Shown here one piece after another: positions 5,720 through 36,860 of a DNA stretch of 36,860 bases. The stretch is from a virus: positions 1 to 36,860 of IMG/VR virus record IMGVR_UViG_3300028840_000579; one strand, given 5' to 3'. How positions within the stretch are numbered: position 1 is the first letter of the stretch; each line of letters starts with the position of its first letter. The notes under the pieces are model-generated. The model did not search any database and had not been told where the DNA came from. It saw nothing but the letters and a program-made list of their open reading frames with translations. A program made the position numbers and the translations under genes.

Positions 5720-5742
5720 GTTGATTATTAAAAGTTAATTGA

Positions 5743-32319: not shown

Positions 32320-33000
32320 ATGGCAAAAAATTATCCACAAAATATTATAATCCACCATACAGCGGTGAGTTATAATCGAAACCCCGATCAATACAATGCG
32401 ACTAATAATTATCACAAGTCGCTAGGTTGGGGTATGATTGGGTATCATTACGAAATTGCCAAGAACGGAAAATTATACAATGGAAGACCCGAGGATATGC
32501 CGGGAGCACATTGTTATCAGCAATCAATGAATTATCGCAGTATCGGGATCGCTCTTGACGGCAATTTTGATCAGGAACTCCCAACAGCTGAGCAAGTCAA
32601 AACATTAACTGATTTGCTTAAAAGATTAATGCAAAAATATAATATCCCAGCGGAAAGGATTTATCCTCACCGCAAATTTGCATTGAATAAATACGGAAGA
32701 CCTTACAAGACTTGTCCCGGAGCGAAACTATCAGATAATTGGGGACAATCTCTTATCAAAGAGCCGATCATTGAAAAGTCAAAAATCGATTTGAAATTTG
32801 CTTTGAAATGGCGGAAAAAATTTATCCTTGAAGCCGTTGATTATAACGGCAAGCCGGGGACTGGCAAATTATATTACGTTGATATTCGAGGTAGGAAAAC
32901 ATATATCCCACCCGAAATGTCAATCAAAGAATTTGTCGAGAAGCACAGGATTGCGACAGGTTTCTCAGAGAGAGACGTTGATCGTATCCCTGACGCTTAA
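32320..33000 (+). CDS. N-acetylmuramoyl-L-alanine amidase (endolysin, amidase_2/PGRP fold)
   Basis: 226 residues. IIIHHTAV (His12/13), PGAHCYQQ, SIGIALDGNF, and PHRKF...CPG (His117, Cys132) give the zinc and active-site framework of amidase_2 enzymes, which cut the bond between muramic acid and the peptide. The C-terminal 80 residues (KWRKKFILEAVDYNGK, then KTYIPPEMSIKEFVEKH) are a small extra domain, perhaps for wall binding. There is no signal peptide, so a holin should release it. The small membrane protein gene follows. Confidence 0.9.
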   Translation: MAKNYPQNIIIHHTAVSYNRNPDQYNATNNYHKSLGWGMIGYHYEIAKNGKLYNGRPEDMPGAHCYQQSMNYRSIGIALDGNFDQELPTAEQVKTLTDLLKRLMQKYNIPAERIYPHRKFALNKYGRPYKTCPGAKLSDNWGQSLIKEPIIEKSKIDLKFALKWRKKFILEAVDYNGKPGTGKLYYVDIRGRKTYIPPEMSIKEFVEKHRIATGFSERDVDRIPDA

Positions 33001-33016
33001 TTATTAACTCAAATAT

Positions 33017-33220
33017 ATGAAAGCATTAAAAGATTTACTTTCAAAGATTTCGGGGAAAGTAAACGGATTAACAAGCGGAAAAAAGACTTATACTATTGCG
33101 ATCCTATTACTTGTTTTTGCAATAGCTGGATTTACGACTGGTCAATTGGATCAGGATCAAGCAGTTCTTATCATTTTGAACGCTTTTGGTCTTGGCGGAT
33201 TGAGGAACGCTATAAAATAG
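33017..33220 (+). CDS. Small membrane protein, candidate holin or antiholin
   Basis: 67 residues. A basic amphipathic N-terminus (LSKISGKVNGLTSGKKTY) leads to one clear hydrophobic segment (TIAILLLVFAIAGFTTG) and a second, weaker one (AVLIILNAFGLGGL). Position directly behind the amidase makes it the likely lysis-cassette holin, with the 18802 protein as a second candidate. No family signature is strong enough to fix the role. Confidence 0.6.
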   Translation: MKALKDLLSKISGKVNGLTSGKKTYTIAILLLVFAIAGFTTGQLDQDQAVLIILNAFGLGGLRNAIK

Positions 33221-33243
33221 GTCGAATTTAGCGAAATTTGCCA

Positions 33244-33328
33244 CCTGAGAGCTTGATTTGTATGATTTGCGGATAATGTGGCGGAAAAAAAGAAACTGCT
33301 CTTAAAACGCAAATAAATAGCTCTCAGG
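33244..33328 (+). ncRNA. Rod-like inverted-repeat element downstream of the lysis genes
   Basis: CCTGAGAGCT (33244-33253) pairs perfectly with AGCTCTCAGG (33319-33328). Inside, ATTTGCG (33265-33271) pairs with CGCAAAT (33308-33314), and GCGG/CTGC can close a terminal loop. It lies within the 569-bp stretch without genes (33221-33789). It may be the 3' end of the lysis mRNA or a processed RNA. Confidence 0.5.
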
Positions 33329-33332
33329 AAGT

Positions 33333-33361
33333 TTGACATTTTTGCGGTTAATTTATAAAAT
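33333..33361 (+). promoter_or_regulatory. Strong promoter for a short non-coding RNA
   Basis: TTGACA (33333-33338), 17-base spacer, TAAAAT (33356-33361). The -35 is perfect and the spacing is ideal. No gene follows for more than 400 bases, but a terminator does, 50 bases downstream. Confidence 0.7.
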
Positions 33362-33367
33362 ACCGAA

Positions 33368-33438
33368 GCGAGGAAACTCGCAACTAACAATTGTTAGTTA
33401 GTAAACCAAAAGCACCCTTTTATCTCGGGGTGCTTTTT
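33368..33438 (+). ncRNA. Predicted small RNA of about 70 nt
   Basis: It starts about 7 bases after the -10 and ends in the terminator GCACCC/GGGTGC with AAAA/TTTT flanks (33408-33438). The 5' hairpin is GCGAG-GAAA-CTCGC (33369-33382), then the 18-base palindrome AACTAACAATTGTTAGTT (33382-33399). The run TTGTTAGTTAGTAAA (33391-33405) is complementary to leaders of the genes at 34261, 34877 and 35124. It is a good candidate for an antisense regulator; no known RNA family is recognised. Confidence 0.6.
33408..33438 (+). terminator. Rho-independent terminator of the small RNA
   Basis: AAAAGCACCC pairs with GGGTGCTTTT, followed by T and GG; loop TTTATCTCG. Symmetric A and U flanks mean it can work in both directions. 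Confidence 0.85.
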
Positions 33439-33445
33439 GGTTTGA

Positions 33446-33478
33446 GTTATCCACAGAGATTTAGGGAGATTTAGGGGG
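33446..33478 (+). promoter_or_regulatory. DnaA-box-like site and AGATTTAGGG tandem repeat
   Basis: GTTATCCACAG (33446-33456) contains TTATCCACA, the classic DnaA-box sequence. Directly after it, GAGATTTAGGG is repeated in tandem. The surroundings also hold the palindromes CGTCCTAGGACG (33487-33498) and TTGACAA-CTTA-TTGTCAA (33505-33522). Together this looks like an origin or control region. Confidence 0.45.
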
Positions 33479-33557
33479 GGTATCAACGTCCTAGGACGAT
33501 GTTATTGACAACTTATTGTCAACCTGATCTTTATCAATTGTAAACTAATTGTAAAGT

Positions 33558-33605
33558 GCCGGGATTTCGGCAGAAACAAAAAGCTCCGGAAATCCCGGAG
33601 TTTTT
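33558..33605 (+). terminator. Terminator with mutually exclusive anti-terminator pairing
   Basis: CTCCGG (33584-33589) pairs with CCGGAG (33595-33600), followed by TTTTT: a terminator. But CCGGGATTT (33559-33567) is complementary to AAATCCCGG (33590-33598), which would prevent it. GCCG/CGGC (33558-33561 with 33568-33571) can in turn sequester the first strand. This three-way switch is attenuator-like. Confidence 0.65.
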
Positions 33606-33698
33606 GCGACTTATAATTAACCAAAATGGAAATTATGAAAAACTTTTATTTTGCCGTATCGGCACTTAAAATATAGCACGATTATTAATTTTACGCAA

Positions 33699-33756
33699 GT
33701 TATCCCCAATTTATTTACATTTTGGGTTTTGCAATAATGAGATTGTCTGATATAAT
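33699..33756 (+). promoter_or_regulatory. Promoter P3 with upstream GTTATCCCCAA box
   Basis: GTTATCCCCAA at 33699-33709, TTGCAA -35 (33729-33734), 16-base spacer and TATAAT (33751-33756). It drives the winged-helix gene at 33790. The same box stands upstream of the promoters at 52 and 34800. Confidence 0.7.
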
Positions 33757-33789
33757 GAAGTTGACTTTTAATAATTAATCAATGTTATT

Positions 33790-34110
33790 ATGCAAAAAAT
33801 CGGCTCATTGACCGAAAAAGCAACTGTCGGTCTTTTATCAAAGGGTTATGGTATTATGCCAAACTCGGTTTTATTCGCAACTTCGCTCAACTCAACGGAG
33901 AAGTTGCTTTTTTGTTTGATCTCAAGCTTAACCGCTGAAAAAGGTTATTGCTTTGCTTCAAATGATTATCTTGCTGAAAAAATGAACAAAAGCAACATAA
34001 TGATAAGAAAAAGTATCAAGACGCTAAAAGATAAAAATTTCATAGATGTAAGTATTACAGAGTTCAATAAAAGAAAAATAATAATAAATAATTTTTTTAA
34101 GAACCTTTAA
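33790..34110 (+). CDS. Winged-helix DNA-binding regulator or replication-initiator-like protein
   Basis: 106 residues. The middle (SLNSTEKLLFCLISSLTAEKGYCFASNDYLAEKMNKSNIMIRKSIKTLKDKNFI in outline) is the HTH_36-type winged helix seen at the N-terminus of phage and plasmid replication initiators (aLs..ek.ll..i......g.c...n.yLA......s....is..l..L...g.I). The final basic strands could be the wing. It lacks the extra domains of a full initiator, so a regulator is equally possible. DnaA-like boxes and operator arrays surround it. Confidence 0.65.
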   Translation: MQKIGSLTEKATVGLLSKGYGIMPNSVLFATSLNSTEKLLFCLISSLTAEKGYCFASNDYLAEKMNKSNIMIRKSIKTLKDKNFIDVSITEFNKRKIIINNFFKNL

Positions 34111-34119
34111 GTATTAAAT

Positions 34120-34229
34120 TTGTAGTATTAATATTGTACTATTATATGATAACAGGTTATCACCCCCCCGATAATATATTATCACCCCCCTGATAATATA
34201 ATATCACCCTTTTATAGAGTTATCCCCAA
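34120..34229 (+). promoter_or_regulatory. Operator/iteron array with weak promoter before gene 34261
   Basis: TTGTAG-N17-TATATG (34120-34148) forms a weak promoter. TGATAAC-AG-GTTATCA (34148-34163) is a perfect inverted repeat at the -10 edge. Three units of the TTATCACCCCCC(C/T)GATAATATA type begin near 34157, 34179 and 34201 (22-bp spacing), the third partial. A GTTATCCCCAA box ends the array (34219-34229). A repressor or initiator probably binds here. Confidence 0.65.
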
Positions 34230-34260
34230 CTTTTCCTCAAAATTTACTAACTGACAAAAT

Positions 34261-34779
34261 ATGAAAATAAAAAAGCAAATAGTTGAATTGCTCCCGGCCG
34301 AGCAACAGCAATGTATCGAATTTGGTAAAGCTATTTATCAGAACAAAGTATCAAAGGGGTTTCACAGACCCTCAGCCAAGGGGTTTGATCCGATTAAGCT
34401 TGATATATTGACAGTAATGAGCGAATACGCTCTCGCAAAATATCTTGATGTTCCTTATAAGTTTGAACTCTTTGACGGTCACGACGAGGGAGATGTGGTC
34501 GTCAATGGATATAAGATTGACGTCAAAATGATCCTCAAATTTGATCAGCTTTACTTTGATGTTCGGAAGCTCCACCTTGAGCGATCCGATCTTTTTGTTG
34601 GAGTAAAGAAAAAATCAAAGTATGGTCAGCTTTGGCAGATTGTCGGCTGGGTATGGCGAAATCAGATCGAGCATAATTGCCAAGCTTATCAGCAAGAGTG
34701 GTACGGAAAAAATGAAATCTTTTATCGAGTGGAAGAGTATGAGCAAGCTGAGTTTCTGCTTTCCTCTCTCCGGCAATAA
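34261..34779 (+). CDS. PD-(D/E)XK-like nuclease, uncharacterised
   Basis: 172 residues. MSEYALAKYLDVPYKF with HDEGDVVVNGYKIDVKMI matches the E...D-x(8-12)-DxK spacing of PD-(D/E)XK folds (E near 59, D near 78, DVK near 88-90). The remainder has beta strands and helices (LYFDVRKLHLERSDLFVGVK). Similar small nucleases occur in phages, where they may degrade host DNA or process branches. Leader TTTACTAACTGACAA (34243-34257) is complementary to the predicted small RNA with one G-U pair. Confidence 0.6.
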   Translation: MKIKKQIVELLPAEQQQCIEFGKAIYQNKVSKGFHRPSAKGFDPIKLDILTVMSEYALAKYLDVPYKFELFDGHDEGDVVVNGYKIDVKMILKFDQLYFDVRKLHLERSDLFVGVKKKSKYGQLWQIVGWVWRNQIEHNCQAYQQEWYGKNEIFYRVEEYEQAEFLLSSLRQ

Positions 34780-34782
34780 AAA

Positions 34783-34828
34783 GTTATCCCCAAATTAGTT
34801 TGACATTCATTATTGAATTTGCTATAAT
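34783..34828 (+). promoter_or_regulatory. Promoter P2 with upstream GTTATCCCCAA box
   Basis: GTTATCCCCAA (34783-34793), TTGACA (34800-34805), 17-base spacer, TGC-TATAAT (34820-34828). The block from 34807 to 34829 is identical to 58-80 in promoter P1, so one copy arose by duplication. The leader then folds as GAGCTT-GAA-AAGCTC (34835-34849). Confidence 0.75.
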
Positions 34829-34876
34829 ACCTGTGAGCTTGAAAAGCTCGATATTTACTAATTAACCCACGCAATT

Positions 34877-35092
34877 ATGAAAATCAAACTTAGGTGGATT
34901 TACTTCACCGAAAAAGCTCAAAAGGAAATCTTTGACTTAGTTTACAAAGAGGAGCTTCGATCATATTGTATCAGGAACAACGAAGCGTTCGTGATCGGAG
35001 CAATTCCAAGCGAAGTCGAGGATCTTGTAACTGAGCTAACAATGGCGAGGATCAAAGAAGCTCTTGAGGGAGCAGACGAGATCCAATTCTAA
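34877..35092 (+). CDS. Small early protein of unknown function
   Basis: 71 residues: a beta strand (KIKLRWIYFT), a helix (EKAQKEIFDLVYKEELR) and an acidic C-terminal helix (EVEDLVTELTMARIKEALEGADEIQF). It is the first gene after promoter P2, so it should be made strongly and early. Its leader carries TTTACTAATTAAC, able to pair with the small RNA. Candidate anti-host or regulatory protein; no family recognised. Confidence 0.65.
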   Translation: MKIKLRWIYFTEKAQKEIFDLVYKEELRSYCIRNNEAFVIGAIPSEVEDLVTELTMARIKEALEGADEIQF

Positions 35093-35123
35093 AAAAATTT
35101 ACTAACTAACAAAAACCAAAATT

Positions 35124-35687
35124 ATGAAAAAGCTTATCAAAATTACTTGCTTGATTATAGCAATAGTGGCTCTCGCATTTTTAGGATCAGTTCTGATCCA
35201 TATCAATTCGGCCGCTCAGGATAAAACAGCCGAAAAAAATTATCTTAATTACGAGGATTATGCGGAGACTCAATCTGATTATATAATCCCGGATCCTTGC
35301 GGATTGGCAACTGTGGAATGTTCTTACGAAGTTGAGGAATATGTCCCGGAGCCAGTTGAGACTATTTACGACAGCAAGCTGGAGCACGCAAAAAGCTCTG
35401 AAACAAATGCAATCGTATTCGCTTATAATGCTGATCCAGCTCAAACAGACGGCAATCCTTGCCGAACAGCTTCCGGATTTGATGTTTGTAATGATAAAAG
35501 CGTCAAGGTGGTAGCGAATAATTGCTTAAAATTTGGAACGAAAGTGATTATCGCTGGGGTAGAATATGAAGTTCAGGATCGATTGAACTCCCGATATAGC
35601 TGCGAATATTATGATATTTTTATGGAGAGTTATGACGACGCTATTAAGTGGGGTAAAAGATATTTAAAAATTGAGGTACTTAACTAA
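35124..35687 (+). CDS. Membrane-anchored 3D-domain (double-psi beta-barrel) protein
   Basis: 187 residues. Residues 1-30 are a basic start plus hydrophobic segment (IKITCLIIAIVALAFLGSVLI), a signal anchor. From about residue 100 the sequence follows the 3D/MltA-C pattern: VVANNCLKFGTKVIIAGVEYEVQDRLNSRY in outline, then YYDIFMESYDDAIKWGKRYLKIEV. Such domains occur in lytic transglycosylase-like wall enzymes. Four cysteines may form disulfides outside the cell. Leader bases 35098-35112 are a perfect 15-base match to the predicted small RNA's complementary run. Confidence 0.72.
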   Translation: MKKLIKITCLIIAIVALAFLGSVLIHINSAAQDKTAEKNYLNYEDYAETQSDYIIPDPCGLATVECSYEVEEYVPEPVETIYDSKLEHAKSSETNAIVFAYNADPAQTDGNPCRTASGFDVCNDKSVKVVANNCLKFGTKVIIAGVEYEVQDRLNSRYSCEYYDIFMESYDDAIKWGKRYLKIEVLN

Positions 35688-35700
35688 TTAACATAAATTT

Positions 35701-35871
35701 ATGGGAAACCCAGACGTAATCACAATAAGTTTAAATTGGTTTATTGGTATTGGAGTTAGTTTTAGAGATTTTAACGGTATTTTAGATTTAAGTATAAGTA
35801 TACCTTTTATAAATATATCAATTTATTTTAAAAAACATACTGATACAAAATGGTTTAAATTTTATAAGTAA
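35701..35871 (+). CDS. Small AT-rich ORF of unknown function
   Basis: 56 residues (MGNPDVITISLNWFIGIGVSF...), hydrophobic and aromatic, rich in I and F. Codons are much more AT-rich (TTT, TTA, ATA) than in neighbours, as if recently acquired. It has a usual leader (TTAACATAAATTTATG). It could be a small membrane-associated peptide. Confidence 0.5.
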   Translation: MGNPDVITISLNWFIGIGVSFRDFNGILDLSISIPFINISIYFKKHTDTKWFKFYK

Positions 35872-35875
35872 AAAA

Positions 35876-36238
35876 ATGAAAGGTAACAAATTAAAAGCTT
35901 TACAAGTTAAAAGCAAAAATCTCAATTATGAATTGAATGATCTCAATTACAAATTAACTCAACTTAAAAGCCGGATCGATTATTTACAGGGAGAAAAAGA
36001 CAAAGTCGATAAGCGTATCAGCTTTATGACAAAAGAGCCAGTTGTATCAGAGCACGCTTTGCTCAGATACTTGGAGCGGAAATACGACTTTGATGTCGAG
36101 CAGATCAAAGACGAGATCCTTACAAAAGATTTCAAGGAGTTAATCAATTCAATGGGGGACGCAAATTATACAATCCCCGGAACAAATTTGAAAGCTATTG
36201 TTAAGAGCAATGTTATAATAACAATAACCCCTCAATAA
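35876..36238 (+). CDS. Coiled-coil protein with SEHALLRYLER domain
   Basis: 120 residues. The first half is a coiled coil (LKSRIDYLQGEKDKVDKRISFM). The second half, VSEHALLRYLERKYDFDVEQIKDEIL...YTIPGTNLKAIVKSNVIITI in outline, has the S-x-HAxxRxxeR start of DUF4258/BrnT-like small folds known from phages. Function is unknown; some relatives are toxin-like RNases, but key residues cannot be confirmed here. Confidence 0.6.
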   Translation: MKGNKLKALQVKSKNLNYELNDLNYKLTQLKSRIDYLQGEKDKVDKRISFMTKEPVVSEHALLRYLERKYDFDVEQIKDEILTKDFKELINSMGDANYTIPGTNLKAIVKSNVIITITPQ

Positions 36239-36239
36239 T

Positions 36240-36359
36240 ATGGCAGAAAAAAAGAAAAAATCGAAGTTTCAAAAATGCAAAAAATGCGGGATTGAAACAA
36301 TACTTGCAAAATGTCCACATTGTGGAACTTTTATTCAAGAGATCAAAATCAAAGATTAA
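36240..36359 (+). CDS. Tiny zinc-ribbon protein
   Basis: 39 residues: a lysine-rich start, CKKCG, then CPHCG 10 residues later, the pattern of a short zinc ribbon as in rubredoxin-like or RNA-polymerase-binding peptides. It is the fifth CxxC-CxxC mini-protein in the window. The structured RNA begins 12 bases after its stop. Confidence 0.6.
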   Translation: MAEKKKKSKFQKCKKCGIETILAKCPHCGTFIQEIKIKD

Positions 36360-36371
36360 GTCGCTTGTGGC

Positions 36372-36459
36372 TTAATCGGTGGGTATCCACGGGAAGTTTC
36401 CCGGATCTTTGCCAGCCGGGATTGGCTGGATTGCGTGGGAGATCCTACCCACCGATTAA
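36372..36459 (+). ncRNA. Compact structured RNA with predicted pseudoknot
   Basis: A perfect 14-bp outer stem joins TTAATCGGTGGGTA (36372-36385) and TACCCACCGATTAA (36446-36459). Inside are CCAC/GTGG (36387-36390 with 36435-36438), hairpin GGGA-AGTT-TCCC (36391-36402), hairpin CCAGCC-GGGATT-GGCTGG (36412-36429), and GGATCT/AGATCC (36403-36408 with 36440-36445), which crosses the CCAC/GTGG stem as a pseudoknot. No known family is recognised; a ribozyme-like or cis-regulatory RNA is possible. Confidence 0.65.
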
Positions 36460-36474
36460 CTCATAAGCACGCTT

Positions 36475-36636
36475 ATGAAAATCAAACATTATATTCCTTA
36501 CATTATTGGAAAAGTATCAAAAAAATATCGGCTTCAATGGTGGCGGAAAAATAACGGAAAATGGTTGTGGGGAGTAATAAAAGCAACGACTGATCTCCCG
36601 CCGAAACCTGACCGAGAGCAGATAATTAATTTATAA
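36475..36636 (+). CDS. Small aromatic/basic protein of unknown function
   Basis: 53 residues (MKIKHYIPYIIGKVSKKYRL..., QWWRKNNGKWLWGVI), with many W, Y and K residues. The ATG is inside an inverted repeat CATAAGC-AC-GCTTATG (36462-36477), so its start may be controlled. Its W-x-K-x-x-G-x-W pattern loosely resembles the next ORF, hinting at relatedness. Function unknown. Confidence 0.5.
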   Translation: MKIKHYIPYIIGKVSKKYRLQWWRKNNGKWLWGVIKATTDLPPKPDREQIINL

Positions 36637-36643
36637 CTTTACT

Positions 36644-36860
36644 ATGTCAGTATTAAGAAAAATCAAAGACGATAAATATTATACGATAAGGGAGATCCAC
36701 AAAAATCGCTTTTTCTTTTGGTATAAGGATTACGGCTCAATTTGGAGATGTATCTTGAGAGATATTAAGGGAGAGAATATTTTGCAAGCTGAGGTGAGCG
36801 AGAATAATTACCGCAATATTTATCGGATAAAAGGAGAGTATATCAAAAAATATATTAAGC
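36644..36860 (+). CDS. Small basic protein, cut by the window edge; continues at 1-26
   Basis: 72 residues are visible (MSVLRKIKDDKYYTIREIHK..., FFFWYKDYGSIWRCILRD). The frame is open at the right edge. If the 9-base overlap joins the ends, it continues CAA TTT ATG GAC GCT TAA and stops at position 26, for a total of 77 residues. Unknown function, but continuity supports a circular map. See finding on the ends. Confidence 0.55.
   Translation, partial: MSVLRKIKDDKYYTIREIHKNRFFFWYKDYGSIWRCILRDIKGENILQAEVSENNYRNIYRIKGEYIKKYIK

Follow-up and report, generated by a model that had tools for sequence, protein, structure and literature searches.

Based on a promoter-like site, a fold, a terminator, complementarity to leaders and the absence of a Shine-Dalgarno (SD) sequence from most leaders, all of which are observed in its genome, we tentatively propose that a siphovirus-type phage encodes a weak trans-acting antisense RNA that would cover the SD-less leaders of two of its genes, 34261 and 35124 (genes are named here by their first position). 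The proposal further supposes that the RNA is made, that its hairpin can unfold to engage the two leaders, and that the resulting drop in translation is relevant in infection. We regard it as the best single account, with a confidence that stays clearly short of even, and it is nearly tied with a reading in which the complementarity is a by-product of the grammar of the phage's leaders. The preliminary description of this DNA had posited an antisense RNA acting on three genes; that interpretation is partly supported, in that the leaders of 34261 and 35124 pair at one site of the RNA, whereas the third, that of 34877, does not stand out and the pairing site is sequestered.

The window, by which we mean the whole stretch of DNA analysed, is the entire IMG/VR virus record IMGVR_UViG_3300028840_000579 (positions 1-36,860; 36,860 nucleotides), and its gene content is that of a siphovirus-type phage. 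The plus strand carries nearly all genes of the record: an ERF recombination protein, an exonuclease and a RusA-like resolvase are encoded near its start and are followed by terminase, portal, head and tail genes and the tape measure protein, while an amidase gene lies at 32320 and a gene for an HTH_36 replication-initiation-like protein at 33790. Bases 1-9 are the same as bases 36852-36860 (atattaagc), perhaps a short circular overlap. An SD-like GGAG, GAGG or AGGA occurs in only 2 of the 53 leaders of the record, i.e. the phage is largely SD-less. Three plus-strand genes concern us here, namely 34261 (34261-34779, 172 amino acids) and 35124 (35124-35687, 187 amino acids), the two possible targets, and 34877 (34877-35092, 71 amino acids), a weak one; their place next to the genes for the replication initiator and for recombination suggests that they are early genes. 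The product of 34261 had been called nuclease-like, a label that stands by inspection only, with no match in PHROGs, Pfam, phages or PDB, and that of 34877 has no family match in PHROGs or Pfam. The product of 35124 combines an N-terminal hydrophobic stretch with a C-terminal cell-wall-enzyme-like (3D) domain; it matches PHROG 2307 and 20590, Bacillus phage SPO1 gp2.8 and a lytic transglycosylase, matches that bear out its cell-wall-enzyme-like character, whereas the name 3D itself was given by inspection and has no Pfam hit behind it. Further downstream, a small unlisted frame of 39 codons (36240-36358) contains two CxxC pairs and appears zinc-ribbon-like by inspection.

The predicted small RNA (33368-33445, plus strand, start and end both inferred) is about 78 nucleotides long, and its unit sits just past the last late gene. 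It is preceded by a sigma-70-type promoter-like site, TTGACA-17-TAAAAT (33333-33361, plus strand), which agrees with the consensus at 11 of 12 positions; the plus strand contains two sites this good, against about 0.5 per strand expected by chance. The other (34800-34828, a 12/12 match) has AGTTTGACATT and TAWAATACC in common with it, and both are followed by a hairpin at the inferred transcript start, at 33368-33381 for the RNA and at 34835-34849 for the second promoter. In the RNA this hairpin gives way to a perfect 18-bp palindrome, AACTAACAATTGTTAGTT (33382-33399, approximately +15 to +32), which folds into a hairpin with an AAUU loop, and then to the inverted repeat of a terminator stem-loop (33402-33444). 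The segment 33367-33445 has a predicted folding energy of -37.2 kcal/mol, which none of 200 shuffles equaled (z -7.05), and ranks with the most stable windows of the record. Together, these features make a short terminated transcript from 33368 to 33445 likely, its independent promoter and terminator being present by prediction; the 70-nt small RNA envisaged earlier is thereby upheld as a short unit and revised to a predicted length of about 78 nt. The terminator could also end the late-operon transcripts just upstream. Between the last late gene and the promoter of the RNA lies a large imperfect inverted repeat (33241-33331; CCTGAGAGCT ... AGCTCTCAGG).

Within the predicted RNA, the plus-strand stretch TTGTTAGTTAGTAAA (33391-33405) is the exact reverse complement, at 15 of 15 positions, of 35098-35112, a site whose end lies 11 nt upstream of the 35124 start codon. 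The stretch likewise pairs at 15/15 positions, one of them a G-U, with 34243-34257, 3 nt upstream of the 34261 ATG, and more weakly, at 13/13 positions with one G-U, with 34854-34866, 10 nt upstream of the 34877 ATG; all three sites are on the plus strand, and the single differences in the leaders of 34261 and 34877 retain pairing via G-U. These pairings had been reported in the preliminary description and their coordinates hold; the three leaders are the three top-scoring plus-strand complements across the 36,860 bases of the record, the RNA itself excluded. Its caution that the complementary run lies partly inside a palindrome is borne out, as the 3' arm of the palindrome at 33382-33399 supplies 9 of the 15 pairing bases. 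The next six bases, AGTAAA, match as well, which argues against the match being a mere hairpin copy of a leader fragment and, since they extend it on one side only, against a simple operator.

The size of the excess of this pairing over chance depends on the null used, i.e. on what is held fixed, and the tests were designed after the match had been seen. When the RNA was fixed and leaders were simulated from the grammar of the other leaders (Markov order 2-4), a 15-nt run arose in 0.9-3.7% of the simulated leader sets and a third leader as good in 0-1.3%. With the real leaders fixed and the 78-nt RNA shuffled (n=1000), the best single duplex was equaled in 35 of 1000 shuffles and two leaders at one site in none. 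Shuffled intergenic DNA set against the real leaders (all pieces of at least 60 nt, n=100) matched the single best in 70 of 100 cases and the two-leader site in 6. Once the RNA's own folding was counted, the best pairing was equaled in 20 of 150 leader sets and the second in 4 of 150, and control RNAs were equal in energy. In a related count, in which shuffled genomes were scanned throughout for exact complements to leaders, the hydrogen-bond score of 33 attained by the 15-mer falls inside the null range (median maximum 31, 95th percentile 36), so the single 15-mer is ordinary. Hence a match to one leader is unremarkable, and it is the convergence of two leaders on one site of the candidate RNA that is suggestive: complementarity to the initiation regions of two leaders has p <0.001 against RNA shuffles and 0.06 against intergenic shuffles, and is ordinary once folding counts.

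The pairing stretch is moreover predicted to be buried: 9 of its 15 bases belong to the 3' arm of the palindrome's hairpin, and its final bases sit at the foot of the terminator. Opening all 15 nt of 33391-33405 costs 10.3 kcal/mol; the optimum is reached with a 13-bp duplex of -14.4 whose opening cost is 8.0. The net energies come to -6.3 kcal/mol for 35124 and -6.2 for 34261, whereas 34877, at only -1.1, is energetically ordinary as a target. Scored in the same way, with target opening left out, control sequences (the tRNA, the RNA's own reverse complement and further structured pieces) attain between -6.5 and -7.3 with one leader or another. Among intergenic-leader pairs taken genome-wide with accessibility counted, the two formed with 34261 and 35124 take only the 6th and 11th places between them. 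The pair placed second in this list is a 21-nt complementarity (with G-U) between 5720-5740, the leader after tRNA-Gly, and 33759-33779, the leader of the replication-initiator-like gene. These energies take no account of proteins, of folding during transcription or of initiation by kissing-type contacts, and so weaken the antisense model without going further.

On the antisense account, 33368-33445 would be made as a short terminated phage transcript, and the 3' arm of its hairpin together with the next six bases (UUGUUAGUUAGUAAA) would pair with the leaders of 34261 and 35124, which are A/U/C-rich. Given the missing SD of both leaders and the position of the bases engaged, 3-26 nt ahead of the AUG, pairing would keep ribosomes from binding there and lower translation, the leader element being covered by the RNA in the manner of the c4 or GcvB RNA. 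The by-product reading, to which we give very slightly more credence, though again less than an even chance, holds that the transcript or the terminator is real and that TTTAYTAAYTRAY-like leaders are simply reused in this phage, their complement being carried by an A/T-rich hairpin that contains AACTAACAA by chance; the role of the RNA would then be that of a late-operon 3' end, an origin-side transcript or an attenuated leader. Its position just past the last late gene, where the terminator would serve the late operon, accords with such a role, and the ease of single matches among intergenic shuffles and the similar scores of control RNAs with accessibility counted both speak for this reading. 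Also in its favor, all 5 plus-strand copies of TTTAYTAAYTRAY (2862, 19368, 34243, 34854 and 35098) fall in leaders, which make up about 6% of the bases, a count that is descriptive as the pattern was written to fit the observed sites; this agrees with the earlier caution that leaders in this genome share a common style. TTTACTAACTAAC-like SD-less leaders are likewise found in some unrelated phage contigs, ahead of one or several genes each and most clearly in L041, and no perfect antisense copy was found in the records searched; the motif is thus a general start-site leader signal with a function of its own, presumably in ribosome binding, and needs no antisense RNA as its explanation. In L041 (7746-10485), a run of small genes repeatedly has TAACTAACTAA-like SD-less leaders, making this contig a possible resource on the meaning of the motif. 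Against the by-product reading stand the palindrome, which explains only 9 of the 15 bases, the failure of every one of the 1000 RNA shuffles to produce two leaders this good, and the location of the motif's only minus-strand copy in the record inside the RNA unit, such a copy being present in 1 of 100 shuffled genomes.

Alternatively, AACTAACAATTGTTAGTT could be a DNA operator at which a phage repressor controls the 33333 promoter, the leader copies being half-sites. We consider this unlikely: a perfect 18-bp palindrome directly downstream of a strong promoter, in an intergenic region with several other short palindromes, is in its favor, but the record contains no second copy of the palindrome at up to 3 mismatches, no repressor gene was identified, and the leader match runs the six bases past the palindrome on one side only. 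A minus-strand reading, in which TTTACTAACTAACAA is the ordinary leader of a small gene opening at a TTG at 33390 and running to 33157, has very little to commend it, for although the motif is followed directly by the TTG of this 77-codon frame and an in-frame ATG at 33339 has a leader-like stretch ahead of it, the genes of the record are almost all plus-strand genes and the frame overlaps the end of gene 33017. We reject such a gene on its codon score (-0.19 to -0.23, against a median of -0.24 for spurious minus-strand frames), which is unlike that of the phage's genes.

Returning to the antisense account, the closest precedents are found in phages and enteric bacteria. The c4 RNA, a short RNA encoded by phages P1 and P7, is proposed to pair near the start of a phage gene and so to block its translation, and its action depends on a defined fold with the pairing bases thought to lie in loops (PMC12197685). 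The candidate RNA would similarly be a short, folded, phage-encoded RNA pairing near the start of a phage gene, as predicted here from sequence; however, its pairing bases lie in a stem and its target is not an antirepressor. In terms of covariance models, no kinship with c4 emerged from Rfam, in so far as none of its families matched the region. GcvB, a host RNA of enteric bacteria with many demonstrated targets, uses a G/U-rich pairing stretch against several mRNAs, in which it silences not the SD itself but a leader element that enhances translation (PMC3879156). The candidate RNA likewise has a pairing stretch rich in G and U that is complementary to a leader element instead of an SD, and its mechanism would more closely resemble that of GcvB than that of c4. 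Yet it has two weak predicted targets in one phage, and its pairing stretch is not exposed as in GcvB, being held in the hairpin arm and the terminator base at the opening cost given above; for want of an exposed seed we do not file it as GcvB-like. The sar RNA of P22 and the OOP RNA of lambda are also phage antisense RNAs directed at phage mRNAs, whose translation or stability they lower (PMC12197685), but both are cis-encoded opposite or overlapping their targets, whereas the candidate RNA would act in trans from 0.8-1.7 kb away.

Searches for relatives yielded little for comparison. A comparison with 50,697 phage records revealed no DNA relative of the region, and the nuclease-like, 3D-domain, terminase and 35876 proteins have no close relative in IMG/VR (four queries). 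The amidase finds a counterpart there in contig L004 (61% over part of the protein), and L004 was rejected as a relative carrying the RNA, which is absent from the region downstream of its amidase. Two IMG/VR contigs contain the palindrome, both unrelated, and 13 have the hairpin with the same 3' extension, but the DNA retrieved from these contains no matching leader, and most look like coding sequence or chance occurrences. A scan of bacterial genomes with the amidase recovered only scattered Bacillota amidases and did not pin down the host. Rfam gave no family above the gathering score across 33200-36860, tRNA being the only known RNA family in the record.

A second structured intergenic element, at 36361-36470 (fold -57.5 kcal/mol, z -6.3; no Rfam match), has an outer stem that includes the leader of a 53-amino-acid gene at 36475. 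Mostly unpaired within this fold is AUUGCGUGGG (36430-36439), which is exactly complementary, over 10 nt, to CCCACGCAAU ahead of the 34877 start codon and, over 9 nt, to CCACGCAAU ahead of that of 117. Of 120 sets of simulated leaders, 4 matched the best of these pairs and none the second. Both leaders appear to derive from one unit, so that their matches to AUUGCGUGGG are not independent: an identical promoter piece, TTGAATTTGCTATAATA, occurs at 64-80 and 34813-34829, and the leader that comes after it ends in CCACGCAATTATG each time, as if promoter and leader had been duplicated together. The CGUGG of the element could instead pair with an upstream CCACG inside it. As a lead, we note 36361-36470 as a possible second antisense element, better-looking than 33391-33405. 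It is conceivable, although we think it improbable, that the leader motifs serve as addresses in a non-SD host, with 33391-33405 directed to the TTTACTAACTRAC leaders (34261, 35124) and AUUGCGUGGG to the CCACGCAAUU leaders (34877, 117), in a small antisense network setting the output of the replication-side genes. CACGCAATTATG, with which the leaders of 117 and 34877 end, is also found at 347-358, at an in-frame ATG within the ERF gene. RAGTTATCCCCAA occurs exactly four times (32-44, 33697-33709, 34217-34229 and 34781-34793), three of these upstream of sigma-70-like promoters, and a near copy with the DnaA-box sequence TTATCCACA lies at 33444-33456, just after the terminator of the RNA; these may be sites of an origin or of early promoters. 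Just ahead of the leader of 34261, at 34148-34210, a GATAAYATATTATCACCCCCC-like unit of about 22 bp is repeated in tandem.

If the complementarity is a by-product of leader grammar, it carries the caution that a shared A/T-rich leader style makes 15-base complements to a hairpin easy to come by, and the lesson that accessibility and genome-wide nulls are needed. If the antisense account is true, the phage would possess a trans-acting RNA that represses several of its own genes by covering an SD-less leader element, in a setting where control by small RNAs is hardly studied and in a lineage without a close relative in the collections searched.
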